From: Luteibacter aegosomatissinici
GTDB lineage: Bacteria > Pseudomonadota > Gammaproteobacteria > Xanthomonadales > Rhodanobacteraceae
Assembly: GCF_023078495.1 (NCBI RefSeq)
Contig: NZ_CP095742.1
Span: 434,001-498,000 of the forward strand
Length of the DNA: 64,000 nucleotides
Direction of reading: 5' to 3'
Part shown: piece by piece, positions 47,714 to 64,000 of the stretch
Numbering within the stretch: position 1 is the stretch's first letter
Layout of the letters: the number at the start of each line of letters is the position of its first letter
Notes under the pieces: model-generated
Told to the model about the DNA's origin: nothing
The model's input: the letters and a program-made list of their open reading frames with translations, nothing else
The model's database searches: none
Made by a program: the position numbers and the translations under genes

Positions 47714-49438
47714 ATGTCTGCGATGACCGAGCATAGGGACATGCTTACCGGCGAACCGGGCGAAGCCCAGGTCTGCGCGCACCTGGTCGCGCATGGCCGC
47801 CTGAAAGACACTGACCTCGCCCGGGCACGGCGCCTGCACGACGAGACGCCCGAGGGCACCCTCACGGCGTTGATGGCCCGCCTCGGCCTGGTGTCGGAGC
47901 GTGACCTGGCGGATGCCTGGGCGGCCTTGCTGGGGCTGCCGCTGCTGGCCGCGAAGGACGCCCCCGAGATGCCGCCGGCCGATGTCGAACTTTCGGTCCG
48001 CTTCCTGAAGCAGTACCACGTCGTGCCCGTGCGCGAGGGCGACGATGGCCTGGCCTTGCTGGTGTCCGACCCCGCCGATCCTTACCCGCTCCAGGCTGTC
48101 GCGCTGGCTACCGGCCGGGAGGTGCAGTTGCGCGTGGGCCTGCGTTCGGAGATCGATGACCTGATCGAGCGCTATTACGGCCAGGGCCGTTCGGCGATGG
48201 GCAGCATCGTCGAGAGCCTCGATGGCAGCGCGGCGGTCGAAGACGACGTGGAACACCTGCGCGACCTGGCCTCGGAGGCCCCGGTCATCCGGCTGGTCAA
48301 CCTGATCCTGCAGCGCGCCGTCGAGCAGCGTGCTTCCGACGTACACATCGAACCGTTTGAGAACCGCCTGAAGGTGCGCTATCGCATCGACGGTGTGCTG
48401 CACGAAGTCGAAGCGCCGCCCTCGAGTTCCACCGCCGCCGTGATCTCGCGCGTCAAGATCATGGCCCGGCTGAATATCGCCGAGCGCCGCCTGCCGCAGG
48501 ATGGCCGCATCCAGCTGCGCGTGCAGGGCAAGGAGCTCGACCTGCGCGTTTCCACCGTGCCCACCAGCTTCGGCGAATCGGTGGTCATGCGTATCCTCGA
48601 TCGCGAATCGGTCGTGTTCGATTTCGAATCGCTTGGCTTCACCGACAGTTTCCGCGACAGCTTCGTCGAGGTGCTCGATCGCCCGCACGGCATCCTGCTG
48701 GTCACGGGTCCCACCGGCTCAGGCAAGACCACCACGCTGTACACCGCGCTGTCGCAGATCAACACGCCCGACGTCAAGATCATCACCGTCGAAGACCCGG
48801 TGGAATACCAGATCGAGGGCATCAACCAGATCCAGGTGAAGCCGCAGATCGGCCTGGATTTTGCCGGTGCGCTTCGCTCGATCGTGCGCCAGGATCCCGA
48901 CGTGATCATGATCGGCGAAATGCGTGACCTGGAAACCTGCCGAATCGCCATCCAGTCCGCACTGACCGGCCACCTTGTGCTGTCCACGCTGCATACCAAC
49001 AGCGCGGCGGGCGGTGTGACCCGCCTGCTGGACATGGGTGTGGAAGATTACCTGCTGGGCTCCACGGTCAACGGCATCCTTGCGCAGCGCCTTGTACGCC
49101 GCCTGGATCCCGAGACGGCCGTTGCATACGAGGCATTGCCCGAGGTCATCGAGCAGTTCCAGCTACACAAGTACACCGACGAGCGCCCGATCCGGCTGTG
49201 GAAACCCGGTTCGAGCGCGGCCAATCCCACCGGCTACCGCGGCCGTCGCGCCATCATGGAGTTCCTGGTGATGAGCGATCCCATCCGCCGGCTTGTCATG
49301 CAGCGCGCGGATGCGGGCGAGATCGAGCGGCAGGCGCGCTCCGAAGGCATGCGTACGATGTATGAGGATGGCCTGGCCAAGGCCGTATTGGGCGTCACCA
49401 CCATTGAGGAAGTCCTGCGCGTCACGCAGGAGAGCTGA
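47714..49438 (+). CDS. gspE: Type II secretion ATPase GspE (XpsE-like)
   Basis: A 574-residue cytoplasmic hexameric ATPase powering pseudopilus assembly. An N-terminal domain binds GspL and is followed by the N2 and catalytic domains. The Walker A motif GPTGSGKTTT has K338; the Asp box, Walker B (DPDVIMIGEMRD) and His box (STLHTNSA) follow. The zinc-binding tetracysteine element usual in GspE is missing: the segment RRLDPETAVAYEALPEV has no cysteines. ATG 47714 is chosen; ATG 47723 is a possible alternative. It is the first gene of an 11-gene operon in Xps order, and gspF begins 2 bases after its stop. Confidence 0.95.
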   Translation: MSAMTEHRDMLTGEPGEAQVCAHLVAHGRLKDTDLARARRLHDETPEGTLTALMARLGLVSERDLADAWAALLGLPLLAAKDAPEMPPADVELSVRFLKQYHVVPVREGDDGLALLVSDPADPYPLQAVALATGREVQLRVGLRSEIDDLIERYYGQGRSAMGSIVESLDGSAAVEDDVEHLRDLASEAPVIRLVNLILQRAVEQRASDVHIEPFENRLKVRYRIDGVLHEVEAPPSSSTAAVISRVKIMARLNIAERRLPQDGRIQLRVQGKELDLRVSTVPTSFGESVVMRILDRESVVFDFESLGFTDSFRDSFVEVLDRPHGILLVTGPTGSGKTTTLYTALSQINTPDVKIITVEDPVEYQIEGINQIQVKPQIGLDFAGALRSIVRQDPDVIMIGEMRDLETCRIAIQSALTGHLVLSTLHTNSAAGGVTRLLDMGVEDYLLGSTVNGILAQRLVRRLDPETAVAYEALPEVIEQFQLHKYTDERPIRLWKPGSSAANPTGYRGRRAIMEFLVMSDPIRRLVMQRADAGEIERQARSEGMRTMYEDGLAKAVLGVTTIEEVLRVTQES

Positions 49439-49440
49439 CC

Positions 49441-50658
49441 ATGAGCCAGTTCCGCTACCGCGCGATCAGCGCCGCCGGCGAGATGCTGGCGGGACGCATG
49501 GAAGCCACGTCAATCGAGGACGTCGTGGCACGGCTGCAGGAGCAGGGCCATGTGCCACTCGAAGCGGCACCGGCCGAAGGCGACGCCGGCGGCGGCAGCC
49601 TCGCCGCGCTGTTTCGCAAAGGGCCCTTCACAGGTGACCAGCTGGCCCAGTTCACGCACCAGCTCGCCACGCTGCTGGGTGCCGGCCAGCCACTGGATCG
49701 CGCCCTTGGCATCCTCCTCGACCTGCCCGAAGGCGAGCGTGCGAAGAACATGGTGGAGCGGATCCGCGACCGCGTACGCGGCGGCACCACGCTCTCTACC
49801 GCGCTGGATGAAGAAAACGGCGTGTTCCCGCGCCTGTACATCAGCCTGGTTCGTGCGGGCGAGGCGGGCGGTTCGCTCGACGAAACCCTGCGCCGGCTTG
49901 CCGATTACCTCGAGCGCGCCCAGGCGCTGCGCGGCAGCATCATCAATGCATTGATCTATCCGGCCTTCCTCATGGTCGGCGTACTTGGTTCGCTGGTGTT
50001 GCTGCTGGCTTACGTGGTGCCCCAGTTCGTTCCGATTTTTGCCGATATGCAGGTGCCGATTCCGCTCATCACCCAGATCGTGCTGGCGATCGGTACGGTG
50101 ATTGGCGACTGGTGGTGGGCCATCGCGCTCCTGATCGTCGTGCTGGTGGTGTTCCTGCAGATGCGCCTGCGTGACCCGGATGCGAAGCTGCGCTTCCACG
50201 CGCGCCTGCTCGGCATGCGTGTCGCTGGCCCGCTGCTGCTAAAGGTGGAGACAGCACGAATCGCACGCACGCTGGGCACGCTGTTGAAAAACGGGGTGCC
50301 CTTGCTCGGCGCACTTTCCATTGCGCGCCAGGTGACCGGTAACCGGGCACTCGACATGGCCCTCGAACAGGCCGCCGATCGCGTGAAGGGGGGAACGGGG
50401 CTGGGCAGCGCGTTGTCACAGACAGAGCGTTTCCCCCGTCTTGCCCTGCAGATGATCCAGGTGGGTGAGGAGGCCGGCGCGCTGGACACCATGTTGCTGA
50501 AAGTAGCGGATACGTTCGATGTTGAGGCGAAGCGCGCGATCGACCGGCTGTTGGCCGCCCTCGTTCCTACGCTCACCATCGTCATGACCGTCCTCGTGGC
50601 TTTCATCATGGCGGCGATCCTGCTGCCGCTGCTCAGCCTCACCAGCAATATCAATTGA
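49441..50658 (+). CDS. gspF: Type II secretion inner-membrane platform protein GspF
   Basis: A 405-residue polytopic protein at the core of the assembly platform. It has two homologous T2SSF domains (about 70-195 and 270-395) of helical bundles, separated by TM segments near 170-195 and 220-245, with a last TM at the C-terminus. It starts MSQFRYRAISAAGE as usual, and motifs such as FTHQLATLLGAGQPLDRAL and RAGEAGGSLDETLRRLADYLE match the family. It would contact GspE and GspL at the inner face. Length is typical (about 400). Confidence 0.95.
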   Translation: MSQFRYRAISAAGEMLAGRMEATSIEDVVARLQEQGHVPLEAAPAEGDAGGGSLAALFRKGPFTGDQLAQFTHQLATLLGAGQPLDRALGILLDLPEGERAKNMVERIRDRVRGGTTLSTALDEENGVFPRLYISLVRAGEAGGSLDETLRRLADYLERAQALRGSIINALIYPAFLMVGVLGSLVLLLAYVVPQFVPIFADMQVPIPLITQIVLAIGTVIGDWWWAIALLIVVLVVFLQMRLRDPDAKLRFHARLLGMRVAGPLLLKVETARIARTLGTLLKNGVPLLGALSIARQVTGNRALDMALEQAADRVKGGTGLGSALSQTERFPRLALQMIQVGEEAGALDTMLLKVADTFDVEAKRAIDRLLAALVPTLTIVMTVLVAFIMAAILLPLLSLTSNIN

Positions 50659-50685
50659 CCGAATCGTTCCCCAGGAGTTTTGCCC

Positions 50686-51111
50686 ATGCGCTCGACCCGT
50701 ACCCTCCGACACAGCCACGCCCGCGGCTTCACGCTGCTGGAAATGCTCGCGGTGATCGTGCTGATCGGCATCATCGGCGCCATCGTCGTCACCCAGGTCG
50801 GCAAGAACGTCGACAAGGGCAAGTACGGCGCCGGCAAGGCCCAGCTCACCACGCTCACGCAGAAGATCGACAACTACTCGCTCGATAATGGCGCGCCGCC
50901 CGCATCGCTTGATGCGCTGGTGACCAAGCCCGCGGATGCGCAGAACTGGCAGGGCCCCTACGCCAAGGCGTCTGACCTGAAGGATCCGTGGGGCCACGCG
51001 TTCGGCTACCGTTTCCCGGGTGAGCATGGCCAGTACGACCTGGTGTTCTATGGCCAGGATGGCAAGGCCGGCGGCGACGGCTATTCGGCCGACGTTGGTA
51101 ACTGGCAGTAA
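50686..51111 (+). CDS. gspG: Major pseudopilin GspG
   Basis: A 141-residue major subunit of the type II pseudopilus. A prepilin leader ends RG before the cleavage site G-FTLLEMLAVIVLIG with the invariant Glu at +5. The globular part ends with the calcium-binding region: DPWG, YDLVFYGQDGKAGGDGYSADVGNW. The ATG at 50686 follows AGGAG by 8 bases; an earlier TTG at 50680 is disfavoured. Processing needs a prepilin peptidase (GspO/PilD) that is not encoded in the window. Confidence 0.95.
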   Translation: MRSTRTLRHSHARGFTLLEMLAVIVLIGIIGAIVVTQVGKNVDKGKYGAGKAQLTTLTQKIDNYSLDNGAPPASLDALVTKPADAQNWQGPYAKASDLKDPWGHAFGYRFPGEHGQYDLVFYGQDGKAGGDGYSADVGNWQ

Positions 51112-51131
51112 GGCAGGCGGGGTTCACGGCC

Positions 51132-51572
51132 ATGCGCGTGCGCGGTTTCACGCTGTTCGAGATGCTGGCCGTGATCCTGCTGATCGGCCTCGCCGCAGCC
51201 GCCGTTTCCATACCGGTCACGCAGGGCCTGGCCAGTGCGCGCGTCAATGCGGCGAGCGGCGAACTCGCCGCGGCGCTGCGTTATACGCGCACCCAGGCCA
51301 TCGTAAAGGGCGAAAGCCAGGCGCTTGAGGTCGATGTGCGTGCCGCCACGTACCGGCCACCCGGCAAGGGCGATGTGCACCTGCCTCGTGACATGCGCGT
51401 CGCCATTACCAGCGCGCGCGAAGACCAGGCCAACGCCACCACGGGTCGTATTCGTTTCTTCCCCGATGGCAGCTCCACCGGCGGGCGCATCACGTTGACG
51501 CGCGGCCAACGCGAATGGCATGTCAACGTGGGCTGGCTCACCGGCGCGGTCAGTGTGGTGGCGCCACGATGA
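51132..51572 (+). CDS. gspH: Minor pseudopilin GspH
   Basis: A 146-residue minor pseudopilin with a very short leader (MRVRG) before FTLFEMLAVILLIG, Glu at +5. The rest forms the GspH/FimT-like beta domain. It likely sits in the shaft or tip of the pseudopilus. Its stop overlaps the gspI start in an ATGA. Confidence 0.92.
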   Translation: MRVRGFTLFEMLAVILLIGLAAAAVSIPVTQGLASARVNAASGELAAALRYTRTQAIVKGESQALEVDVRAATYRPPGKGDVHLPRDMRVAITSAREDQANATTGRIRFFPDGSSTGGRITLTRGQREWHVNVGWLTGAVSVVAPR

Positions 51573-51994
51573 TCCGGCATGGCATGCACGCCCGCCGCCG
51601 TGCGGCGGGTTTCAGCCTGCTCGAGGTCATTGCGGCCATTGCGGTGCTGGCGATCACGTTTGCCGCCCTTATGCAGGTCGCGGGCAGCGCCATAAGCCTC
51701 ACCACGCGCGCCAACGAGCGCACGCAGGCCGCGCTGCGCGCGCGCAGCCTGCTCGATGGTGCATTCATCATGGAGCCGGTGCAGGAAGGCAGCAGCGAAG
51801 GACGATTTGACGACACGTACCGCTGGCGATTGAACGTGGCGCCGTTCAACGTTGGCGATGCGCCCACGGATACCGGCAACGGCGCGCGCATGTACCGCCT
51901 CGACCTGGACGTGCTGTGGGGCGACGATGGGCGCGAGCGTCGTGCCCATTTTTCCACGCTGCGCTTTGGTGTTCCGCAAGGTAGTGGGCCATGA
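51569..51994 (+). CDS. gspI: Minor pseudopilin GspI
   Basis: A 141-residue minor pseudopilin. A basic leader (MIRHGMHARRRAAG) precedes FSLLEVIAAIAVLAI with Glu at +5. GspI forms the tip complex with GspJ and GspK. The start overlaps gspH by 4 bases and the stop overlaps gspJ by 4 bases, indicating translational coupling and equimolar synthesis. Confidence 0.92.
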   Translation: MIRHGMHARRRAAGFSLLEVIAAIAVLAITFAALMQVAGSAISLTTRANERTQAALRARSLLDGAFIMEPVQEGSSEGRFDDTYRWRLNVAPFNVGDAPTDTGNGARMYRLDLDVLWGDDGRERRAHFSTLRFGVPQGSGP

Positions 51995-52656
51995 AGCGCT
52001 CGCATGGCTTCAGCCTGATGGAGGTACTGGCGGCGCTCGCGCTGCTTTCCATCGTGCTGCTTGGCGTGTACTCAGGCATCAGTACCGCGGGGCGTATCGT
52101 CCGCAGCGGCGATCGCGCCATCGAACGCATGGATGAGGTTCGCTCCACCCAGGCGTACCTGCGTAGTGAGCTGGCGCAGGCGCTGGTCATGCCTTTCGGT
52201 GAAACCGACGACGGCGATCCGGTCGTCTTCGCTGGCGCATCGGACAAGATCACGTTCGTCGCTCCCATGCCGGGCTATCTGTCGCGGCTGGGTCCGCAAA
52301 TGCAGGTGGTGGCGCTGGTGGCCGATGGTCGTGACGACTACCGGCTCGAGGTGAGCCTGTTCCTCTTGCCCCCGGATGGCAGTGAGCCAAAGGCGCTGGG
52401 CGATCCGCAGGTTTTGCTCCGCGGCATCCACAAGGGGACCTTCAGCTATCGCGGCATGGACGAACAGAACAAGCCGATGGATTGGCAGGAAAAATGGGCC
52501 GATGGACGCCGGACACCCTCGCTGGTACGCATAGCGCTCGATCTCGACGGGACGACCGCGTTTCCCACGATGATCGCCCCGCTACGTATCGATCCATCGG
52601 CATCCCGCAACGGTTTCTCACTGTCGCGCGGGTCGCGCGGGCCGGTGGTGCGATGA
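51991..52656 (+). CDS. gspJ: Minor pseudopilin GspJ
   Basis: A 221-residue minor pseudopilin with leader MKRSHG before FSLMEVLAALALLS, Glu at +5, and a large beta-rich globular domain as expected for GspJ. It takes part in the tip complex. Overlaps of 4 bases on both sides tie it into the operon. Confidence 0.92.
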   Translation: MKRSHGFSLMEVLAALALLSIVLLGVYSGISTAGRIVRSGDRAIERMDEVRSTQAYLRSELAQALVMPFGETDDGDPVVFAGASDKITFVAPMPGYLSRLGPQMQVVALVADGRDDYRLEVSLFLLPPDGSEPKALGDPQVLLRGIHKGTFSYRGMDEQNKPMDWQEKWADGRRTPSLVRIALDLDGTTAFPTMIAPLRIDPSASRNGFSLSRGSRGPVVR

Positions 52657-53510
52657 GTACGCTGCGGGTTCAGCGCGGCGTGGCGTTGCTCATCGTGCTG
52701 TGGGGCTGCACGTTGCTCGCCATCATGCTGGGCGGGTTCGCCGCCCTGGCACGTACCGAGGGCCTTCAGGCGCGCTACCAGTTCGCGCAGACGCGCGCGC
52801 ACTACGCGGCCGAGGCGGGCATCATGCGGGCCATCGATGGCCTGCAGACGCCTGATCCGCAGGCACGCTGGATCGCCGATGGCCGGAGCTACACGTTTGC
52901 CTTCGACGATGCGAAGGTCGACATCACCATCGTCGATGAAGACGGCAAGGTCGACTTGAATGCCGCCTCGGCGGACGTGCTATCCGGGTTGTTCAAGGCC
53001 GCTGGCGCCGACGACGACCGGGCGCAGAAGTTGTCCGCCGCCGTGCAGGACTGGCGTCGACCCGGCGACGCGGCATTGCCTAACGGGGCAAAGCGACCGC
53101 AGTACGAAGCGGCAGGCCTGGATTACGGCCCGCGCAATGGCCCGTTCGCGACCGTCGAAGAGGCCCGCATGGTGCTTGGCATGGACGCGAAGCTGTGGAC
53201 CGTTATCGCGCCCGCCATCACCATCTGGTCGGGGCGCGAACGGCCCAACACCGAACACGCGCAGCCGCTCGCACTGGCCGCCATCCCCGGCCTGGGGAGT
53301 GCCGGCGCCACGGCCATTCTCGCTACGCGCGCCCAGGCGGGCGGTGCCGCGGTCGCGGGCGGCAATGGCGTCACCCACACGATCCACGCGGAGGCGATCC
53401 TTGACGACGGAACGAGGAGTTCCCTGACATCAACGATCAGACTTCGTGGGATAAGATCCGGAAACCAGCCCTACGCGATCTTGCGTTGGCGCGAAGGAGA
53501 CAGCGAATGA
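52653..53510 (+). CDS. gspK: Minor pseudopilin GspK
   Basis: A 285-residue tip pseudopilin. The leader MSTLRVQRG precedes VALLIVLWGCTLLAIM, where +5 is isoleucine rather than Glu, the normal exception for GspK. The globular domain contains VDLNAASADVLSGLFKAAG, the helical alpha-domain feature of GspK, and IWSGRERPN. It is shorter than many GspK proteins (about 320). Overlaps gspJ and gspL by 4 bases each. Confidence 0.92.
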   Translation: MSTLRVQRGVALLIVLWGCTLLAIMLGGFAALARTEGLQARYQFAQTRAHYAAEAGIMRAIDGLQTPDPQARWIADGRSYTFAFDDAKVDITIVDEDGKVDLNAASADVLSGLFKAAGADDDRAQKLSAAVQDWRRPGDAALPNGAKRPQYEAAGLDYGPRNGPFATVEEARMVLGMDAKLWTVIAPAITIWSGRERPNTEHAQPLALAAIPGLGSAGATAILATRAQAGGAAVAGGNGVTHTIHAEAILDDGTRSSLTSTIRLRGIRSGNQPYAILRWREGDSE

Positions 53511-54688
53511 CGGCCCTGCAGGATGCCTCCCAGCTACAGCTCGAACGCTTCCGTCGCGCATGGCGCGGCAGCGCGTTGCCGGGCTTCCTGAGCTGGTGGT
53601 TCGGCGAGCTGGCGAACCTCGTCCCTGCGCGTTGGCGGGATGCCTTTACCGGTGGGCAGCGCTGGTACATCATCGAGCGCGGCGAGGACGGGTGGATACT
53701 TCGCCGGGCTGGTGAAGCCACAGTGCTCGCCACTGCCGATGACATCGATGCCGTCGAACACCGCACGGCCCAGTTTTCACGCGTCCTGGCCGAGGCGGAT
53801 CCGGCCGACCGCCGCGTCGCCCTGGTGTTGCCGGCGGGCCATGTCCTGCGCCGCCGGCTTGTATTGCCTGTCGCCGCGCGCGACAACCTCCGCCAGGTCG
53901 TCGGGTTCGATGTGGACCGGCAAACACCGTTCCGCGCCGACGAGGTGCACTTCGGTGTACGCGACCTGGGTGAACCGGCAGGCGAAAACCGGTTCGCGGC
54001 GGAACTGGCGGCGACGCCGCGCAGTGCGCTCGATCCCCTGCTCGATGAGCTCGGTGCGCTTGGCATCACGCCCGACCGGGTCGATGTCGCAAAAGGCCAT
54101 GGGCTGGCTGGGGTCGATCTTCTTCCGCCGCAGCGCGCACCACGCCGCGTCGATCGCCGACGCCGCATCAACATCGCACTTGCCGTGGGCGTCATCATCC
54201 TGGCCGTGGCAGCCATGGCTACCTGGCTCCATAACCGTGCGGTCGCGCTGGATGCGATGCGCGCAGAGGTTGACGCCATGCAGGCCGATGCAAAACGCGT
54301 CGGCGCATTACGCCAGCGCCTCACCGAGAGTGCAGGGGCATCGGGCTTTCTCGCCAGGCGCAAGGCCGAATCGGCTGCCATCCTGCCGGTACTGAACGAA
54401 CTTACGGCTCGCCTGCCGGATGACACGTGGCTGGAGCGTTTCACGCTGAACGCCAGTGGGCAGATCGGCTTCCAGGGCCAGAGTCCCCAGGCAGCGCGTC
54501 TTATCGATGCACTCAAGGGGGCGAAGACCATCGCCGAACCCAGCTTCCAGGGCACGATCCAGACCGACCCGACCTCAGGCAAGGAGCGCTTTTACATGCA
54601 AGCGAAGGCATTGACGCCGAAGCCGGCCGCCGCGGGGGCACCCGTGCCGTCGGCCAGCACCGCGGGCCCGAAGGGGGCCGCACCATGA
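53507..54688 (+). CDS. gspL: Type II secretion protein GspL
   Basis: A 393-residue bitopic protein linking GspE to GspM. It has a cytoplasmic actin-like region (about 1-215), one TM helix near 223-243 (NIALAVGVIILAVAAMATWL), and a periplasmic ferredoxin-like part with PilN-like sequence (LPDDTWLERFTLNASGQIGF). It is close in size to XpsL. The last residues are Ala/Pro-rich. Overlaps gspK and gspM by 4 bases. Confidence 0.92.
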   Translation: MTALQDASQLQLERFRRAWRGSALPGFLSWWFGELANLVPARWRDAFTGGQRWYIIERGEDGWILRRAGEATVLATADDIDAVEHRTAQFSRVLAEADPADRRVALVLPAGHVLRRRLVLPVAARDNLRQVVGFDVDRQTPFRADEVHFGVRDLGEPAGENRFAAELAATPRSALDPLLDELGALGITPDRVDVAKGHGLAGVDLLPPQRAPRRVDRRRRINIALAVGVIILAVAAMATWLHNRAVALDAMRAEVDAMQADAKRVGALRQRLTESAGASGFLARRKAESAAILPVLNELTARLPDDTWLERFTLNASGQIGFQGQSPQAARLIDALKGAKTIAEPSFQGTIQTDPTSGKERFYMQAKALTPKPAAAGAPVPSASTAGPKGAAP

Positions 54689-55299
54689 TCACCGTGGCAA
54701 AGATGAAGCCGGGCGAGTCGCGTATCGCGGCTATCGTGTTGCTGCTCATTGCGCTCACGGCCGTGTATTTCCTGTTCATACACTGGTGGTTTGTCGCCCC
54801 GCAGCTCAGCATGGCCGATGAGATGGATGACCTGCGCGATACGCAGCGGCGTTACGCGGCAGCCATCGCCGAGCGCCCGCAGCTGGAAAAGCGCCTAGCC
54901 ACCCTGGAGCAGGGGCAGACGCGCAGTGATGCGTTCCTCGCGGGCGATGACACCAACGCCGCAGCGGCGGGGCTCATGCAGCGAGTCGTCGATGTGGCGG
55001 CGGCACACAAGGAAGATGGTGCCTGCGACGTGGTGCAGAAAATGCCCGTGCCTGCGCAGGACAAGGCAGGCGATCCTTACCGCAAGGTCACCGTGAACAT
55101 CAGCCTGCGCTGCCAGATGCAGCCCATGGCCGCGGTGCTGCACGATATCGAAGAAGAGGCACCTTACCTGTTCATCGAGGATTTCAGCATTTATCGCAAC
55201 CCGGTCGCCGCGCGCAACGGCGGCAATGCACCCCTCGAAGTCCAGTTCACCGTATCCGGTTACATCCATGCCGCGCGCGCGGCGAAGGCGGCCTCGTGA
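54685..55299 (+). CDS. gspM: Type II secretion protein GspM
   Basis: A 204-residue inner-membrane protein with one TM near residues 15-36, a short coiled-coil stretch (about 45-85, QLEKRLATLEQGQ), and a periplasmic domain containing two cysteines that might pair. It stabilises GspL. Sequence is weakly conserved in this family, so identification relies on topology and gene order as well. Overlaps neighbours by 4 bases. Confidence 0.9.
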   Translation: MITVAKMKPGESRIAAIVLLLIALTAVYFLFIHWWFVAPQLSMADEMDDLRDTQRRYAAAIAERPQLEKRLATLEQGQTRSDAFLAGDDTNAAAAGLMQRVVDVAAAHKEDGACDVVQKMPVPAQDKAGDPYRKVTVNISLRCQMQPMAAVLHDIEEEAPYLFIEDFSIYRNPVAARNGGNAPLEVQFTVSGYIHAARAAKAAS

Positions 55300-56066
55300 A
55301 CGCGGCGGGCCAGCGTCGCCTGACGCCCATCCTCGCCGGCATTGCCATCGCACTTGCCTGTACCACCGCCGCTTTTGCCGTCGGCGTGGGCCGTGGCGTG
55401 CACTGGGATGATCCAAACGCACCCGAGCCGTTACCGCCCGTGCGTGCCGCAAGCATGCCGGCGCCATCGCCACTGGCGAACTTCGCCGAGACCTGGCAGC
55501 GTCCGTTGTTCATGGCCGATCGCAAGCCGGTCGCCTCGACGGGGGGCGACGATAACGCGGCGAACATCGGTGATCTGGAACTGACAGGCATCATCATGAC
55601 CGATGGCCTGCACATGGCCCTGTTGCGTGACCGCGACAAGGGTACCGCCGTACGCGTGAAAGAAGGCGCCGCGCTGCAGGAGGGGCACTGGACGCTTGCC
55701 TCGCTCACGCCGCGCAGTGCCGTGTTTGATAACGGTGGCCAGCGACGCGAGCTCACGTTGAAGGTGGCGGCCCCCGATCCGCTCGCCAATGCGAAGCCGG
55801 GTGGCCCGACGCCGCCGGGCGCGCAGCCGCCACGGCCGCCGCAAGCCAGCGCCGATGATGGCGTCAGGGTTGTCCAGCCGCAGGGCGGTGGCATGACCGG
55901 CCCGGCGCTACCCCATCCACCGGCGTCCTCCGGTACGCGTAGTCCGCCACCGCGTCAGGACGATGCCGATCTGCAGCGGGCGCGTATCGAAGCCTTGAAG
56001 CAGGCGGTACAGAAGCGCCGCATGGAGCAGCAGCAGGAGCAGCAAAGGCAACAGGACGTCCGTTAA
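55296..56066 (+). CDS. XpsN-like type II secretion protein (GspC/GspN-type)
   Basis: A 256-residue protein with one N-terminal TM anchor (about 9-30). A periplasmic homology-region-like domain (about 85-170: LELTGIIMTDGLHMALLRDR, then VRVKEGAALQEGHW) resembles the GspC HR domain that binds the secretin. The C-terminal part is Pro/Gly-rich and ends in a Gln/Arg-rich helix. No separate gspC is present; in the Xanthomonas Xps system XpsN takes this position and is thought to replace GspC. Start is GTG 55296, overlapping gspM by 4 bases. Confidence 0.85.
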   Translation: MNAAGQRRLTPILAGIAIALACTTAAFAVGVGRGVHWDDPNAPEPLPPVRAASMPAPSPLANFAETWQRPLFMADRKPVASTGGDDNAANIGDLELTGIIMTDGLHMALLRDRDKGTAVRVKEGAALQEGHWTLASLTPRSAVFDNGGQRRELTLKVAAPDPLANAKPGGPTPPGAQPPRPPQASADDGVRVVQPQGGGMTGPALPHPPASSGTRSPPPRQDDADLQRARIEALKQAVQKRRMEQQQEQQRQQDVR

Positions 56067-56106
56067 TCGGCGCATCGCGCCCCCTCATGGAAAGAGGAAC
56101 ACGACC

Positions 56107-58251
56107 ATGCAAGCTAAGAAACTGGGGGTGGCGATCGCCACCGCCCTGCTCGCGACCGCCTGTGCACAGGCGCCATCACGCCTCGCAGGCAATCTCGAGC
56201 GGGAATCACTCGCCGACCTGGCACGGCCCGTTCCGGCGCCATTGCCGTTGCCAGCGGCGCCTGCCAGCACCGAGCCGGGAGAGCCCTCGCCTTCGGTCAT
56301 GCATGGGGCCGCCACCGTATGGCGTCCTAAAACCCTCGACACACCCAGGGCTGAAGCCAAAGGCGAGGGCACCCTGACCTTCAACTTTGAAGATCAACCC
56401 GTCGAGGCGGTTGTACGTGCGATCCTGGGCGATGTACTGGGCGCCAACTATGCGATTACGCCTGGCGTCACAGGTACGGTCTCATTTTCTACAGCACGTC
56501 CTGTTCACCGCGAGCAGGCCTTGCCCATTCTTGAGACGCTGCTTAGTTGGACCGGGAATGCATTGGTGCATCGCGAGGAACGTTACGACGTGATGCCTCG
56601 CCGCGACGCCGTCGCGGGCCGTGCCGTGCCTAAGCTTGCGGCAGCGGCACCCAGGGATGGCCATGCCGTGCGGCTGTTTCCATTGCGTTACGTCAGCGCG
56701 AACGAGATGGAGAAGCTGGTCGCACCGTTCGCAAGCGCCGATGCCATGCTCCTGGTGGACCCGGTTCGCAACTTCCTCGTGATGGCGGGCACTCCGGAAG
56801 AACTCGACAACTACGCGGCGAGCATCGAAACCTTCGATGTCGACTGGGTCAGCGGCATGTCGGTTGGCGTATTCCCGCTCAATCACGCAACGACGCGCGA
56901 GATTCTCCCTGGCCTGGAGCAGATGTTCGGGGCGAGGGGCAAATCGCCCGCGGCAGGTCTCGTGAGGTTCCTGCCCATCGAGCGAAGCAACGCGGTGGTC
57001 GTGATCTCCACCCAGGCGGACTATCTCGCGCGTGTTGGCGAATGGATCGAGCGCATCGATCAAGGCGGAGGAAACGAGCCGCGACTTTACGTCTACGATG
57101 TGCGCAACCTGCCCGCGAGCGATGTTGCGCGGCATATCGGCCAGATATACGGCGGCTATCTCTCCATTGGCGATTCCGCTGGCGGCGTGGCTCCCGGCCT
57201 GGCGTCCGGCCGAGTCGAAGGCGGGCTGGATGATGAAGCGGAGGACAACGCAGCTGAACGCCCACAAGTCGATCCGGATCCGGATTTTTACCAGGCGCCG
57301 TCCCAAGGCCTGGGTGGTGCCAACCATGACCTTCGCATTACCGCCGTCGATGCAAACAACCAGGTGCTGGTTCATGCAAGGCCAGCCCAATGGAAGGGGA
57401 TCCGCGATGCGATCGAGCGCCTCGACGCATTACCTCTACAGGTGCAGATCGAAACGCGCATTCTCGAAGTGTCGCTGCAGGACAACTTCCGCTTCGGCGT
57501 GCAGTGGTATCTCGAGGGCCTGGCGGGTAGCAGCGGCAGCGGCAAACCTACACAGCCCGGTAACCAGCAAGGCTGGGGCCTTGGCCGCAACCCGCCCGCG
57601 CGTGGCGGCGCCGATACGTTCTTCTATTCATTCATCAACAAGGACTTGCAGGCCGTCGTGCGTGCGCTTGAAGAGGATACGCATGCACGGACGCTTTCTG
57701 CGCCCTCGCTTGTGGTCGTCAACAACCGCCACGCGCAAATCCTTGTTGGCGACGAGGTGCCGGTTACCCAGACCTACGTGAATACGCAGTCGGGTGGCAG
57801 CAACGAAGTGGGGCAGGTCAGCTACAAGAAAACAGGTGTCATCCTGAAGGTTCGGCCGCGGGTCAACCCTGGCGGTCTTGTATACCTTGATGTCACGCAA
57901 GAGGTTAGCAAGGTCGGTGAGACGACAAACGCCTCGGGCAATGCACCGATCGAGAAGCGACGCCTGCAGACCGAAGTGGCCGTGCAAAGTGGCCAGACGG
58001 TGCTCTTAGGGGGCCTGATCCGCGAGATGGGAGCGCATGGCCGAAGTGGCGTACCGGGGCTGTCGCGAATACCGCTGCTGGGCCACCTGTTCGGCAACCG
58101 CTGGGATAACAACCAGCGCACCGAGACCCTGGTCCTTATTACGCCCCGGGTGATCGCCAGCGCCGAGGACGCCCGTCGCGTAGCCGACGATTACCGGCGG
58201 CGCTTCCGTTCACTTGAGCCGTTTGCAAAGAAGGCGGCGGGCGACGGGTGA
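56107..58251 (+). CDS. gspD: Type II secretion secretin GspD (lipoprotein, XpsD-like)
   Basis: A 714-residue outer-membrane secretin. It has a lipoprotein signal peptide with lipobox ATAC (C19), as known for XpsD; no GspS pilotin gene is nearby. Domains are N0 (about 90-170), N1-N3 (about 185-450) with an acidic insert between about 355 and 395, and the secretin pore domain (about 470-690). That pore domain includes LSAPSLVVVNNRHAQILVGDEVP and VLLGGLIREMGAHGRSGVPGL. It forms the outer-membrane channel for exoproteins. AGAGGA precedes the ATG. Last gene of the operon. Confidence 0.95.
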   Translation: MQAKKLGVAIATALLATACAQAPSRLAGNLERESLADLARPVPAPLPLPAAPASTEPGEPSPSVMHGAATVWRPKTLDTPRAEAKGEGTLTFNFEDQPVEAVVRAILGDVLGANYAITPGVTGTVSFSTARPVHREQALPILETLLSWTGNALVHREERYDVMPRRDAVAGRAVPKLAAAAPRDGHAVRLFPLRYVSANEMEKLVAPFASADAMLLVDPVRNFLVMAGTPEELDNYAASIETFDVDWVSGMSVGVFPLNHATTREILPGLEQMFGARGKSPAAGLVRFLPIERSNAVVVISTQADYLARVGEWIERIDQGGGNEPRLYVYDVRNLPASDVARHIGQIYGGYLSIGDSAGGVAPGLASGRVEGGLDDEAEDNAAERPQVDPDPDFYQAPSQGLGGANHDLRITAVDANNQVLVHARPAQWKGIRDAIERLDALPLQVQIETRILEVSLQDNFRFGVQWYLEGLAGSSGSGKPTQPGNQQGWGLGRNPPARGGADTFFYSFINKDLQAVVRALEEDTHARTLSAPSLVVVNNRHAQILVGDEVPVTQTYVNTQSGGSNEVGQVSYKKTGVILKVRPRVNPGGLVYLDVTQEVSKVGETTNASGNAPIEKRRLQTEVAVQSGQTVLLGGLIREMGAHGRSGVPGLSRIPLLGHLFGNRWDNNQRTETLVLITPRVIASAEDARRVADDYRRRFRSLEPFAKKAAGDG

Positions 58252-58272: not shown

Positions 58273-60783
58273 ATGGCTGCCGTTTTCCCCATCACCTCGC
58301 TTCTGCCCGATATCGTCGCTTCGCTCGCGGAGCGGCCCCGGCTTGTGCTTGAGGCCCCTCCAGGGGCAGGTAAAACCACGCAGGTGCCGCTGGCCTTGCT
58401 GGATGCCCCATGGCTGGCAGGTCAGCGGATCCTCATGCTGGAGCCGCGACGTATCGCCGCCCGCGCGGCAGCCACCTTCATGGCCGGCCAGCTCGGCGAA
58501 GAGGTGGGCGCAACGGTGGGTTACCGCATCCGCTTCGAATCCCGGGTTGGCCCGCGTACCCGCATCGAAGTGGTCACCGAAGGCATCCTCGGGCGGATGA
58601 TCCAGGATGACCCTTCGCTTGAGGGTGTCGGCGCGGTGCTGTTCGATGAGTTCCACGAGCGGCACCTCGCAGGCGACCTGGGTGCGGCACTGGCGCTCGA
58701 TGTCCAGGCAAGCCTCCGGCCTGACCTCCGCTTGCTCGTCATGTCCGCAACACTCGAGGGTGAGCGCGTTGCGCAGTGGTTCGATGCGCCACGCATCACC
58801 AGCCCGGGGCGCAGCTTTCCCGTCGATTGCACGTACCCGCCCGCGCGCGCGCAGGAATCCATCGAGCAGCACCTTGCCCGAACCGTGCAACTGGCACTGC
58901 GTGAAAACGACGGCGACGTCCTGGCGTTTCTCCCGGGTCGTCGCGAAATCGAACGCACTCGTGGCATGCTCGAGCGGCTCGATGGCGATGTCGATGTCGT
59001 GGTGCTGCATGGCGAACTTTCCCTAGCCGAGCAGCAGTTGGCCCTTGCACCGGCGGATCCCGGCACGCGGCGTGTCGTGCTGGCAACCAACGTGGCCGAA
59101 TCCAGCGTAACGTTGCCAGGCATTCGTGCCGTGGTGGACAGCGGCCTCGCGCGCGAGCCGCGGTTCGATCCCAGCTCAGGGTTCACGCGACTCGATACCG
59201 TCACGATCTCGCAAGCTTCCGCGGACCAGCGTGCGGGGCGTGCCGGCCGCGTGGCCGCCGGGCGTGCTTACCGGCTGTGGCCGCAGAGCCGCCGGCTCGA
59301 ACCTTCCCGCACGGCGGAGATCGAGCAGGCCGAACTCTCTGGCCTGGCGCTGGAATTGGCTGGTTGGGGCAGCGATGCGCTGCCATGGCTCGATGCACCG
59401 CCTGCGGGCGCGATGGGCCAGGCGCGGGACCTGTTGCGCAGGCTCGGCGCCATGGACCCATCCCTGAAGATCACCGCACTTGGACGCGAGATGCTGGCGC
59501 TCGGCGCGACGCCAAGGCTCGGGGCGGCGGCTATGCGCGCGCACGTCGAACAACGGCCGCTGGTAGCCGATCTTCTGGCCCTGGCAGAAGCACGTTCCCC
59601 TTTGCGTGGCGATGCCGCGCGTAACGATGATTTCCGCCAGCGGGTACATGCGCTGCACATGTGGCGCGATGGGGGTGCACGTGCGGCGCGGCTTGCTTCG
59701 GCAGATACCGGCGCGCTCGCCGCCATCGACAAGGCGGCGACCGGCTGGCGTCGCCGTCTCGATATCAAGACCGCGGCCAGCGGTGTACCCGATGCCCACG
59801 CTGTCGGCGACCTGTTGGCCCACGCGTTTCCCGATCGCGTCGCGCGACGTGACGACACTCAGCCGCTACGTTATCAACTTGCGAGCGGACGCGGCGCGCG
59901 CCTTCACGAAAACAGTGCGCTCATCGGTGAGCCGTGGCTGGTGGTGCTCGATCTTCGCCTGGAGGCACGTGATAGCCTGATCTATGCGGCGGCCCCCCTC
60001 GATCCGGACGTGCTTGAGCGCGAGCACGCCGATCGTTTCGTCACTGAGCGTGTCATGCGCTGGGATGATACGCGCCAGATTGCCGAGGCCTTCGAGGAGC
60101 GCCGCTTCGATGCGTTGGTGGTTGCGCGGAAGCCAGTGCCGGTGCAGGGCGATGATGCACTCCCCGCATTGCTGGCCGCGGTGCGTTCGAAGGGCGTTGC
60201 CAGCCTGCCATGGACCGAACACGCCCTGCGGTTGCGCGCGCGCATCAATGCCCTGCGCACGTGGCGTCCGGAGCTGGGCCTGCCCGATGTCGGCGACGAA
60301 GCCCTGGGGGATGCCCTGGAAAGCTGGCTTGCGCCGTACCTCACGGGGAAGCGTCGCCTGGAGGCATTGCAGGCATCGGACCTTGGCGATGCCTTGGCCT
60401 CGCTGCTTGACTACGAGCAGCGACGAACACTTGATGCGCAGGCGCCTGAAGACCTTGCCGTGCCCAGCGGCATGACGCGTCGGCTGGAATACGGCGTGCG
60501 CGATGGTGATCCGGGTGCATCGCCGGTGCTTGCCGTGAAGCTGCAGGAGCTGTTTGGCCTGGCCGATACGCCGCGTGTCGCCGACGGACGCGTTGCGGTC
60601 ACGCTGCATCTTCTCTCACCGGCTGGCCGGCCCATCCAGGTGACGCAAGATCTCTCCGGCTTCTGGAACCGTACTTATCCCGAAGTGAAGAAGGAATTGA
60701 AGGGGCGTTATCCCAAGCATCCGTGGCCCGACGATCCCTGGACCGCCACCGCCACGCACCGGGCGAAACCACGCGGGACGTGA
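58273..60783 (+). CDS. hrpB: ATP-dependent helicase HrpB
   Basis: An 836-residue DExH-box RNA helicase. The Walker A motif APPGAGKTTQ has K34, the D125-E-F-H box is in LFDEFHERHL, and SAT (VMSATLEG) and motif VI (ASADQRAGRAGRVAAGRAYRLW) are present. A C-terminal HrpB-specific region extends to the end, with YPEVKKELKGRYPKHPWPDDP near it. Length is typical (about 810-840). Not to be confused with the type III HrpB regulator of plant pathogens. It begins 21 bases after gspD and may be co-transcribed. Confidence 0.94.
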   Translation: MAAVFPITSLLPDIVASLAERPRLVLEAPPGAGKTTQVPLALLDAPWLAGQRILMLEPRRIAARAAATFMAGQLGEEVGATVGYRIRFESRVGPRTRIEVVTEGILGRMIQDDPSLEGVGAVLFDEFHERHLAGDLGAALALDVQASLRPDLRLLVMSATLEGERVAQWFDAPRITSPGRSFPVDCTYPPARAQESIEQHLARTVQLALRENDGDVLAFLPGRREIERTRGMLERLDGDVDVVVLHGELSLAEQQLALAPADPGTRRVVLATNVAESSVTLPGIRAVVDSGLAREPRFDPSSGFTRLDTVTISQASADQRAGRAGRVAAGRAYRLWPQSRRLEPSRTAEIEQAELSGLALELAGWGSDALPWLDAPPAGAMGQARDLLRRLGAMDPSLKITALGREMLALGATPRLGAAAMRAHVEQRPLVADLLALAEARSPLRGDAARNDDFRQRVHALHMWRDGGARAARLASADTGALAAIDKAATGWRRRLDIKTAASGVPDAHAVGDLLAHAFPDRVARRDDTQPLRYQLASGRGARLHENSALIGEPWLVVLDLRLEARDSLIYAAAPLDPDVLEREHADRFVTERVMRWDDTRQIAEAFEERRFDALVVARKPVPVQGDDALPALLAAVRSKGVASLPWTEHALRLRARINALRTWRPELGLPDVGDEALGDALESWLAPYLTGKRRLEALQASDLGDALASLLDYEQRRTLDAQAPEDLAVPSGMTRRLEYGVRDGDPGASPVLAVKLQELFGLADTPRVADGRVAVTLHLLSPAGRPIQVTQDLSGFWNRTYPEVKKELKGRYPKHPWPDDPWTATATHRAKPRGT

Positions 60784-60920: not shown

Positions 60921-62132
60921 GTGGCCTCTTCCCGATCGGCTTCCGTGCGTGCACGCGCTTCGGTCACCATCGCCTTCCTGGGCGTCATGCTGGTCGCTTG
61001 CCCGACCTGGGCATCGCCCCCCCAGCCGGCCAACCGGTTTCATCTTGCACCGCGTGCCGGGGACGCATACCAGGCATGGACGCGCGCAGCGCTTCATCAA
61101 CTGACCGAGACGCCGTCCGCGAGCTTCGAGCCGTTCATGCCTGACCCCCAATGGGTTGCTGCACTTCTTGACGAACCGGCCTCGCCATACAGCGATCTTC
61201 GTCCCGCCGTGTTCTCCTCGGATGTGATTCGCGGGTTACCCGGGTCCATGCAAAAGCGCCGGGCCATCGCATGGGACCTGGGCCTCGACAAGGCGCTTAC
61301 CGGATACCAGGCCCGTGCCCAGCGCTTTTCGGCTGACGTTGAAACGCAGTGGCCTGCCGTGCGACCGCATATCATCAAGGCCGGTGTGAAGCCGTATTAC
61401 CTGCACCGGGCCCACGAGCACGGGGGCGGGGCCAGCTATCCTGCGCTGACGGCCGAGTTGGCCGTCGCGGCGCAGACTCTCCGCGATTGGGTGGATTCGA
61501 CACCGGAATCACTTCGTGATGCGGTGGGTGTGCGTATCGATGTGCTGCGTCGATTCGAAGCGACAGGTGATCGAGAGCCGCTTTCGGCGGACGATCTGGC
61601 GTACCTGGCCGATATCCTGCGCGGCGAGTTATCGATGTTCCGCGCGGGAAACGTGAATATATTCGGCCAACGCGAGCTGCCCGCGCCGTTGCGTATCGCA
61701 CGCGCGGCGGCCGCCAGCTGGTTGGCCGTGCGAACATCGGCAGCACCCGAATGCCACGAGGATGGCAGCGTGAATCGTTCGCACGCGGCTTCGCGCCCGG
61801 AGGATCCTGCGCGGCCCATGTGCTTCTCCGACGCGACCGACAGGGCAGTGTATGCGTGGTATCTGGCCGAGCGAAACCGGGAACTGGCCGCGACGCTGGA
61901 TACCTGTGAAGGCGGTCCGGTGTTGTGCGAACGGCTGCGCCGGGCCTTCGCAAGCGTGGCCCCCACCTGGATGGGTGCGTTCCCACGCGCTGTCATGCGC
62001 TACGCCAATCACGCCGAGGTCGCTGAATTGCTTATGGCGCAGGATGTGGACGCAGGTGCACCGGGCGATACCGCGTACCTGCATCTTCTCCAGCGGGCCC
62101 ATCTCCTTGTCTACCCAGGAGACCGTCCATGA
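60921..62132 (+). CDS. Secreted protein of unknown family, paralogue of the gene at 63040
   Basis: A 403-residue exported protein. Its Sec signal ends near residue 32 (TWA-S), though LVAC at 24-27 could also be a lipobox. The mature part is mainly helical with motifs shared by the gene at 63040: KRRAIAWDLGL, then ADDLAYLADILRGELSMFRAG, RELPAPLRIARAAA and FSDATDRAVYAWYL. Shared cysteines occur before the last block. The GTG at 60921 is the earliest possible start (an in-frame stop lies just upstream). Its 3' end overlaps the deaminase-like gene by 4 bases. I recognise no family. Possible roles are a co-secreted effector, scaffold, or periplasmic protection protein. Confidence 0.75.
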   Translation: MASSRSASVRARASVTIAFLGVMLVACPTWASPPQPANRFHLAPRAGDAYQAWTRAALHQLTETPSASFEPFMPDPQWVAALLDEPASPYSDLRPAVFSSDVIRGLPGSMQKRRAIAWDLGLDKALTGYQARAQRFSADVETQWPAVRPHIIKAGVKPYYLHRAHEHGGGASYPALTAELAVAAQTLRDWVDSTPESLRDAVGVRIDVLRRFEATGDREPLSADDLAYLADILRGELSMFRAGNVNIFGQRELPAPLRIARAAAASWLAVRTSAAPECHEDGSVNRSHAASRPEDPARPMCFSDATDRAVYAWYLAERNRELAATLDTCEGGPVLCERLRRAFASVAPTWMGAFPRAVMRYANHAEVAELLMAQDVDAGAPGDTAYLHLLQRAHLLVYPGDRP

Positions 62133-63022
62133 GCTTGCGACGCACGCTCGCGCGAGGGGTCCTTGCGGCCTTCCTGGCGCTCCCGCAACTCGCGTCGGCC
62201 CAGGCCTTCATCCAGCGCGAAATACGCGACGACCCGCGTGGCAGTGTGATCGCCCGCCTACTTTCGGCCTTCAACGCACATGCAGAGCCGATGTCGCGCT
62301 GGTACATCGATGCGCTAGGCGGGCGCCACGTCAACACGGGTGAGTACGCGTCCTTCTCCCGCCAAATGGAGACCGCGACGTTCGTGAGCGCCACCTATGC
62401 CTACACGGTGGGGGGTGAAACGCGCCACCGGATATATCACGCGCGAAGTGGCCGCAACGAGCCTGATACCGGGTTGCCAGGCGTGCAAGCATTGCGTAGC
62501 TACAGGGATTACGTTGATGCCACGCAGCCGGGCGTCGTCGCCTGGGATCAGATGCCGCCGCCGTCCAGCCACGTCACGCATAGCCCCCTTGACGACGGGA
62601 GGCACGCGGACGCTCGCCGACGCGATGCCGAACTGAAGATCGCGCGCCGGATCGAGGCGGATATCCGCGCCGGCGTTGTAGCGATGGGCGGGTGGTTGAA
62701 TGTGTACGCGAGCCAGGTGCCGTGTGGTTCGTGCGAGCAGGCTCTGCTGGAACTATCACGCCAGGCCGACATAAGTGTGCACATCGCGTACCTGGGTCGT
62801 GGCAGTGCCGCCTATAGACGCTTCCAGCGGCAGCGCGAGGCATTCATGACGACGATCCAGGTGGCTGCCAATGGCGGTCAACGGAATACATTGCACATCG
62901 AGTCAACCGTCGCGCTGTGTGACCGCGCCTGCCTTGGCTCGGATGATGCCGCTAACGACCAGTCGAATGAAATTGACGATTCCCCCGCCCGGAGCGGTGC
63001 CGAAAGTGCACCAGGGCCATAA
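62129..63022 (+). CDS. Secreted deaminase-fold protein (XOO_2897-like)
   Basis: A 297-residue exported protein with signal peptide cleaved near ASA-Q (about residue 25). Residues 80-240 show the layout of the cytidine-deaminase fold used in bacterial toxins. A beta-hairpin region (TYAYTVGGETRHRIYHA) comes first. Next is the first zinc/catalytic motif D166-A-E168 in RDAELKIARRIEADI, followed by a strand and P-C199-G-S-C202 in SQVPCGSCEQALLELS, then HIAYL. The D-x-E plus PCxxC pattern resembles the XOO_2897-like group. An ATGA overlap couples it to the upstream gene. A stand-alone protein with a Sec signal is unusual, as these domains are usually C-terminal tips of larger toxins. Enzymatic target (free base, nucleotide, RNA, DNA) is unknown. 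Confidence 0.65.
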   Translation: MSLRRTLARGVLAAFLALPQLASAQAFIQREIRDDPRGSVIARLLSAFNAHAEPMSRWYIDALGGRHVNTGEYASFSRQMETATFVSATYAYTVGGETRHRIYHARSGRNEPDTGLPGVQALRSYRDYVDATQPGVVAWDQMPPPSSHVTHSPLDDGRHADARRRDAELKIARRIEADIRAGVVAMGGWLNVYASQVPCGSCEQALLELSRQADISVHIAYLGRGSAAYRRFQRQREAFMTTIQVAANGGQRNTLHIESTVALCDRACLGSDDAANDQSNEIDDSPARSGAESAPGP

Positions 63023-63039
63023 AAGGAGTGATACCTGCC

Positions 63040-64000
63040 ATGAGAAACACAGGGGCGTGCGCCATCGCGGCCACGCTATTGACCATGCTGGCTACCGCAC
63101 CGGCCTCCAGCTTCGCGAGTTCGCGGGTGGGGCCACCGGCCGGCGACATCCTCTCAGCCTGGGTGCGGCAGCGCCTTACCGACGTACCGGCGCACGATCA
63201 ACTGGTAGCCGATAACGCCGTTACGCGCGATATGGTGACGCTGCCCGATTCGATCTACACATGGGTCCGCAACCAGCCCCTCGGATTTCGGGGCAGTGTC
63301 TGGACACGTGCCTTCTCGTCGCTGGCAACGAACGGCACACCCATGACACGTGCCGAGGCCACACAGGCCATCGCCTGGGACCTGGGAATGACAAACGGCT
63401 ATCCCGGAATTGTCGATCCGGTCTTCCCGGTACCCGTCATGGGCGATGCCTGGGCGGGCACCCAGCTCGCGAAGGCGGGCGTGACGGAGGAAATTGCGCG
63501 CAAAGCCCTGGCACTGACTGGACACGGTGCATCCGCGGTCGCTGCGAACTATGCCGTGGCCGTGCAGATCCTTGTCGACAAACTGGCGTGCTTCGATGCG
63601 ACGCAATGGCCCGCGCTGGGCTTGCGCAAGGATGTGCTTGAGCGCTTCATGCTCGCGACGAGTGCGGCGGATCTGCGCAACTACGACCTGGTGTACCTCG
63701 TTCGGCTTTTGCAAGGCGAACTTTCCACGTGGCACGCCGGCGAGATCGCCTCCTCAGGCCGTCGCGAATTACCCACGATGCTACGCGTAGCGCGTGTGGC
63801 CGCCGCGTTCCGTGACATGCAAGGATACGTCGCCGATCCCTGCAATGTTGACGGGTCAGCTCGCCTCGGTGTCGCGGCGACCCACCCGGACGACGCAACC
63901 AACGCCATGTGCATGGTCGCTGCAACCGATCGCGCAGTACTCCGTTGGTACCTGCAAAGCCTCGATCGCCAGACCGATCCGGTGCGGGTTAACTTTGTCA
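63040..64000 (+). CDS. Secreted protein of unknown family, 5' part (runs off window)
   Basis: An open frame from ATG 63040 to the window edge (320 codons visible) with a Sec signal peptide cleaved near SFA-S (about residue 27). It is a diverged paralogue of the gene at 60921. Shared blocks are AIAWDLGM, YDLVYLVRLLQGELSTWHAGE, RRELPTMLRVARVAA and a late AATDRAVLRWYL, with cysteines in DPCNVDG and AMCMVA at matching positions. AGGAG at 63024-63028 lies 11 bases before the start. It probably ends within a few hundred bases of the edge. It follows the deaminase-like gene by 17 bases, so the three form one operon. Confidence 0.75.
   Translation, partial: MRNTGACAIAATLLTMLATAPASSFASSRVGPPAGDILSAWVRQRLTDVPAHDQLVADNAVTRDMVTLPDSIYTWVRNQPLGFRGSVWTRAFSSLATNGTPMTRAEATQAIAWDLGMTNGYPGIVDPVFPVPVMGDAWAGTQLAKAGVTEEIARKALALTGHGASAVAANYAVAVQILVDKLACFDATQWPALGLRKDVLERFMLATSAADLRNYDLVYLVRLLQGELSTWHAGEIASSGRRELPTMLRVARVAAAFRDMQGYVADPCNVDGSARLGVAATHPDDATNAMCMVAATDRAVLRWYLQSLDRQTDPVRVNFV

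Follow-up and report, generated by a model that had tools for sequence, protein, structure and literature searches.

The window analysed here, a stretch of 64,000 nucleotides of Luteibacter aegosomatissinici DNA, contains a type II secretion operon of the Xps type (47714..58251, + strand) that encodes GspE, GspF, GspG, GspH, GspI, GspJ, GspK, a PilM-like protein (53486-54688, +), two further genes outside the scan and GspD (56107-58251, +). The NCBIfam matches to GspE (E 5.8e-206), GspF, GspG and GspD (E 1.7e-133) are above the curated cut-offs, those to GspH, GspI, GspJ and GspK below them. Directly upstream of gspE, at 40636-47517 (+), is a gene for a 2293-aa trimeric autotransporter adhesin with 33 YadA head repeats, 7 stalk repeats and an extended signal peptide. 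Downstream of gspD, a housekeeping helicase gene, hrpB (58273..60783, +; TIGR01970, E 0), is followed by an array of two alternating kinds of genes, designated A and D. A1 (60921..62132, +) encodes an exported protein of 403 aa that is modelled as all-helical, D1 (62129..63022, +) an exported protein of 297 aa with a predicted deaminase fold, and A2 (63028..64000, +, continuing to 64218 beyond the window; 396 aa from its first start) a relative of A1 that is truncated at the end of the window. In the same genome the array continues past this point (window positions equal positions in locus L008 plus 58000) in the order A1-D1-A2-D2-D3-A3-D4, and ends at an RluF-like pseudouridine synthase gene on the opposite strand. 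All three A-D junctions are overlaps of 4 bases, consistent with probable translational coupling, and the other gaps are of 5, 43 and 96 bases. The preliminary description of this DNA had placed the 297-aa ORF and the nearby type II operon correctly but regarded D1 as stand-alone; given the overlap with A1 and the array of A and D genes, D1 is instead one of four deaminase-like paralogues.

A Sec-type signal peptide is apparent by eye in the D1 translation (residues 1-24, 62129..62200, +) and is also recognized by a crude script rule that assigns signal peptides to 59 of 60 D proteins and to 101 of the 483 other ORFs in these loci that are 200 aa or longer. By this rule, D1 and its family carry the Sec or Tat signal peptide required of type II substrates. 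The first predicted zinc and catalytic motif, D166-A167-E168 (62624..62632, +), and the second, C199-x-x-C202 (62723..62734, +), in which P198 directly precedes C199, are conserved far beyond chance given a median pairwise identity of ~23% (computed over 55 pairs). In 60 aligned D sequences, D1 included, D166 is retained in 59, A167 in 53, and E168, C199 and C202 in all 60. A 116-aa fragment (L042), among the 61 D matches, was left out of the alignments and these counts and kept only in the counts of tail cysteines reported below. In a confident AlphaFold (AF2) model of D1, numbered so that model residue equals protein residue minus 24, the motifs lie at the starts of helices 143-156 and 176-189. 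All 50 PDB entries among the matches listed for this model are cytidine-deaminase (CDA) superfamily enzymes, with several guanine, guanosine or cytidine deaminases among the top folds. The superfamily features, [HCD]xE and CxxC at the starts of two core helices within a CDA fold, are thus all found in the model, and the assignment of D1 as a predicted zinc deaminase of this superfamily is supported. The preliminary description had proposed the signal peptide, motifs and fold from the letters alone, and had suggested that the fold be sought in a model and D166, E168, C199 and C202 in homologues; both were found.

The nearest family appears, from profile comparisons, to be BURPS668_1122 (PF14424), matched at E <= 0.1 by 36 of the 47 D members (best E 9.6e-9), and not visibly XOO_2897, the type first suggested for D1, whose model is absent among the 18 Pfam families matched by any of these members. 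One D protein (L035:6488-7312) scores 29.8 bits, just above the PF14424 cut-off of 29.6, and D1 itself scores 19 bits, below it. A profile-profile comparison of D with three toxin deaminase C-termini gave E 3.7e-7; the Asp-x-Glu first motif, the C-x-S-C second motif and the strand that follows align, and one of the three aligned members is the C-terminus of a 3486-aa frame. BURPS668_1122 domains are described as parts of polymorphic toxins (PMC3482391). Unlike the PF14424 toxins, D is Sec-exported, has N-terminal helices of its own and a variable tail that in most cases ends close to a cysteine, and is encoded downstream of an exported partner. The length of 297 aa and its own signal peptide rule out D1 being the C-terminal domain of a large polymorphic toxin; relatives for which a start could be placed are about 250-370 aa. 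A 3645-aa frame in the same genus (G016:C9:3903-4208), which may encode a large CdiA-like toxin, does have a D-like stretch (E 1e-4). SsdA, DddA and DddB (BaDTF1-3) are reported from toxin systems used between bacteria, type VI for example, in which an immunity protein is also present (PMC7901873); D matches their sequence families weakly (Pput2613-deam in 5 of 47 D members, best E 0.0032) or not at all. Weak matches to Pfam SNAD4 were obtained with 7 of 47 (best E likewise 0.0032). To our knowledge, SNADs have no A-like partner. These secreted AID/APOBEC-like deaminases of fish resemble D in combining a signal peptide with a deaminase fold, but are described as a vertebrate family (PMC11004436).

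The A family, with members of ~370-400 aa, was seen in Luteibacter alone in the searches made, and revealed no shared Pfam family, no PDB-sequence match and no clear PDB-fold match. With no known fold to go by, the role of A is a guess. By the crude rule 52 of 57 A proteins have signal peptides; in A1, as read from the translation, this would be residues 1-32 (60921..61016, +) if cleaved after W-A-S. An alternative cut, before C27, is offered by a lipobox-like LVAC at residues 24-27, and as such motifs occur in nine of the 57 A, A1 among them, some A proteins may be membrane-anchored rather than released.

Pairing of A with D is close to strict. In a first set of 21 loci from 20 genomes, with 57 A and 61 D genes, a D follows every A, and an A precedes 57 of the 61 D. 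In five further loci, held out from the discovery of this pattern, an A precedes nine of ten D, and the tenth (in L112, the second locus of G004) is followed by its A. At L044 (10128-12245, - strand) a single 705-aa frame consists of D and then A with no stop codon between them, either because the genes are naturally fused or because a stop was lost. A and D co-evolve: in a mirror-tree comparison of 55 of the 57 pairs, A and D distances correlate with r 0.79, and the highest value reached by any of 2000 permutations is 0.16. FastTree trees of the same pairs have 20 of 52 splits in common, including one that separates 27 from 28 pairs, and of the splits with support >=0.9, 15 of 23 in the D tree and 15 of 30 in the A tree are common to both. 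The other 32 of the 52 splits are not shared, and A and D have matching nearest neighbours in only 32 of 55 pairs; it is thus possible that some partners have been exchanged, or that the divergence is large enough to add noise. Overall, the trees fit best with inheritance of A and D as a unit, which does not in itself prove that the proteins are in contact. Median identities are 28% for A and 23% for D. Between two close species (loci L029 and L047, the one locus pair used), dN/dS is 0.16-0.31 for three A and 0.15-0.24 for three D, as compared with 0-0.13 for four neighbouring genes, where the value for the ABC ATPase rests on a small dS of 0.045. These ratios reveal constraint, and A and D are therefore probably functional, yet fast-evolving.

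Exactly one cysteine follows the zinc site in 66 of 71 D sequences (fragment included); the last cysteine is no more than 6 residues from the end in 61 of the 71 and is the terminal residue in 20, in a tail that looks hypervariable. Exactly one cysteine follows the W-Y block, near the C-terminus, in the A of 60 of 66 pairs, and both partners have a single C-terminal cysteine in 58 of the 66. In the held-out loci the pattern recurs in 10 of 10 D and eight of nine A. D proteins with zero or two tail cysteines accompany three of the six A that have no C-terminal cysteine but only one of the other 59 (Fisher 0.0018, uncorrected for kinship; 65 of the 66 pairs, the L044 fusion being left out and A1 counted as without a C-terminal cysteine). 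The simplest reading, judged from residue patterns, suggests that A and D form a complex tethered by a disulfide between their C-terminal cysteines. The window pair is one of the eight exceptions: the cysteines of A1 (27, 278, 301, 329 and 336) are not near its end, and the D1 tail has two, C264 and C268 (62918..62932, +), where the family mostly has one near the C-terminus. Since the four D of the first set that have no upstream A still have a tail cysteine, this residue may serve some other purpose. At L038 (5167-6192) and L115 (9368-10357), A is apparently shortened at the C-terminus and has no terminal cysteine, and the D encoded with it retains one.

The array occupies a fixed genomic slot. 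Within the stretches fetched, HrpB and GspD matches lie to one side of the array at 19 of the 20 other Luteibacter loci examined, which links the array genomically to type II secretion, as the preliminary description had surmised from one locus, and a block encoding a pseudouridine synthase and an ABC exporter adjoins its other side in 18 of the 20. The exceptions are the second locus of G018, which has neither flank, and L032, where the fetched stretch ends too early. In L032, L040 and L041, gspD and hrpB directly flank one pair, which is oriented like gspD. This fixed position beside gspD is the strongest support for the idea that the proteins are secreted, although adjacency is not export. 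It also counts against a role in periplasmic defence, with D editing foreign DNA, whether from phages, plasmids or transformation, during its passage through the periplasm. The export signal and predicted deaminase fold of D would suit such a role, but D1 has no PADLOC match and A1 only a weak one, to ZorA (E 0.028), and we consider it very improbable. Among the neighbours of the arrays, the secretin gene is fast-evolving: GspD of other Luteibacter species is only 58-77% identical to that of the window, as compared with 79-86% for HrpB and 87-96% for the ABC ATPase.

The ten distinct A/D loci obtained from GTDB contigs are all from Luteibacter. Profile searches found D in all 23 Luteibacter genomes (72 matches, including one fragment and the weak match in the 3645-aa frame of G016), with one to five divergent copies per genome, and A also in all 23 (67 matches). 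The first profiles were built from 47 of 60 D sequences (13 being left out) and 53 of 57 A; later profiles, from ten named Luteibacter loci, comprised the window protein plus 32 of 33 D or 31 of 32 A. With D1 alone as query, matches were found in 21 of 61 genomes, all Luteibacter; G001 and G013 were missed and then recovered by profile. Of 299 genomes sampled from the order, 15 gave a D match, 14 of them Luteibacter and one with a weak match (E 6.4e-4), and 14 gave an A match, all Luteibacter. In a sample of the phylum, D was found in eight of 398 genomes at E <= 0.01, its own and seven with weak, partial matches, and A in three, its own and two at E 0.005-0.007. No full-length A or D was found outside Luteibacter in these order and phylum samples, and searches of plasmid records with one A and of phage records with D1 gave no match. 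Three genomes have a second, separate A/D locus: L043 (G018), L112 (G004) and L114 (G020). Occurrence in every Luteibacter genome searched could also be expected of extracellular nutrient enzymes, with D deaminating free nucleosides or bases so that the cell can scavenge nitrogen or pyrimidines, and A as a folding helper. Type II systems commonly export hydrolases, and the guanine, guanosine or cytidine deaminases among the top folds would fit. However, divergent copies numbering up to five per genome, rapid evolution and kinship to toxin deaminases would be unusual for scavenging enzymes, and the cytidine deaminase models TIGR01354/01355 match only one of 47 D members (E 0.08-0.09). We therefore regard this explanation as quite improbable.

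The reading that we favour, with a probability that we put at about even, is that A and D constitute exported two-protein deaminase effectors, encoded in a genus-wide array and probably released by the adjoining type II system. Sec would carry both proteins through the inner membrane, and they would fold in the periplasm; there D would acquire zinc in an Asp-Cys-Cys site with Glu168 as proton shuttle, and A1 could form a C278-C301 disulfide. Thereafter the two would remain associated, probably in a dedicated complex, often joined by an interchain disulfide from C-terminus to C-terminus, and be released, most likely by the adjoining type II system, to act as an effector on the nucleic acids of other cells. 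In an unlikely elaboration, which would make the pairs a new class of two-chain effectors, A, as a protein of a putatively new fold, would recognize or enter the target cell and reduction of the C-terminal disulfide of the exported heterodimer would then free D in the target cytosol to edit nucleic acids, the units having diversified in one slot on the type II locus of a genus that includes fungal endosymbionts.

The nearest architecture, by analogy, may be that of MafA-MafB in Neisseria, described as a genus-restricted system with a Sec-exported toxin, several loci per genome and an exported partner often encoded immediately upstream (PMC4287609, PMC3482391). In those accounts, the toxin domains at the C-terminus of MafB are exchangeable and an immunity gene, MafI, lies downstream; MafA is a lipoprotein of the cell surface, and secretion of MafB does not require it (PMC4287609, PMC3482391). 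In Luteibacter, on the other hand, all toxin domains seen are deaminases, and no other toxin fold on a conserved N-terminus is present among the 60 aligned D, a set collected by D similarity from which others could be missing. Polymorphic toxins are described as marked by a downstream immunity gene (PMC4287609), and none was seen in the gaps of the window-genome array or among the gap genes scanned in other loci. Of 14 gaps examined, ten of 1.4-1.6 kb have a DbpA helicase gene (nine scanned and confirmed) and the other four, of 93-186 bases, have no frame of 90 aa. A itself might be the cognate inhibitor of D, co-exported or periplasmic, in competition between bacteria of the MafB kind. Near-strict pairing, co-evolution, the fast divergence of both proteins and the PF14424 relatives, including the C-terminus of the 3486-aa frame, are all consistent with this, as are the lipobox-like motif of A1, MafA being a lipoprotein, and the existence of an all-alpha inhibitor of a deaminase toxin, reported for SsdA-I (PMC7901873). 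Yet A precedes D rather than following it, is slightly better conserved, is absent upstream of four first-set D, and mostly has a signal peptide; a deaminase that acts on nucleic acids has to be inhibited in the cytosol, a compartment from which mature A would be missing. We judge this toxin-immunity arrangement to be somewhat unlikely.

If A and D are instead an effector, its target would be equally likely to be a rival bacterium or a eukaryotic host, fungal or other, since the pairs were not seen to come with a gene for cytosolic immunity. Zhang et al. argue for host-directed action in the case of Wolbachia deaminase proteins that have no immunity gene (PMC3482391). Strain 9143 is described as an endohyphal symbiont with type I, II, IV and VI systems and no type III system (PMC9040847). 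As the arrays appear to be carried by the endohyphal strains 9135 and 9143, among others, a role in bacterial-fungal symbiosis is directly testable. Release by type II secretion had been put forward in the preliminary description as a new route for a deaminase; this is weakened by a 2012 catalogue of polymorphic toxins that includes Sec/type II-exported ones, deaminases among them (PMC3482391), and the pairing of an apparently exported deaminase with an exported partner may represent a mode of release that has not been described for such enzymes. Provided that D is active and that the type II system does release it, enzymes that edit nucleic acids would gain a secretion route with a dedicated exported partner, and the ~70 divergent copies present in the 23 genomes would offer a new supply of deaminases, possibly with different specificities. 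RNA-related housekeeping genes, hrpB, dbpA and the RluF-like pseudouridine synthase gene, interleave the arrays, as seen between array and hrpB or between array halves in L028, L029, L030, L031, L033, L034, L036, L044 and L046.
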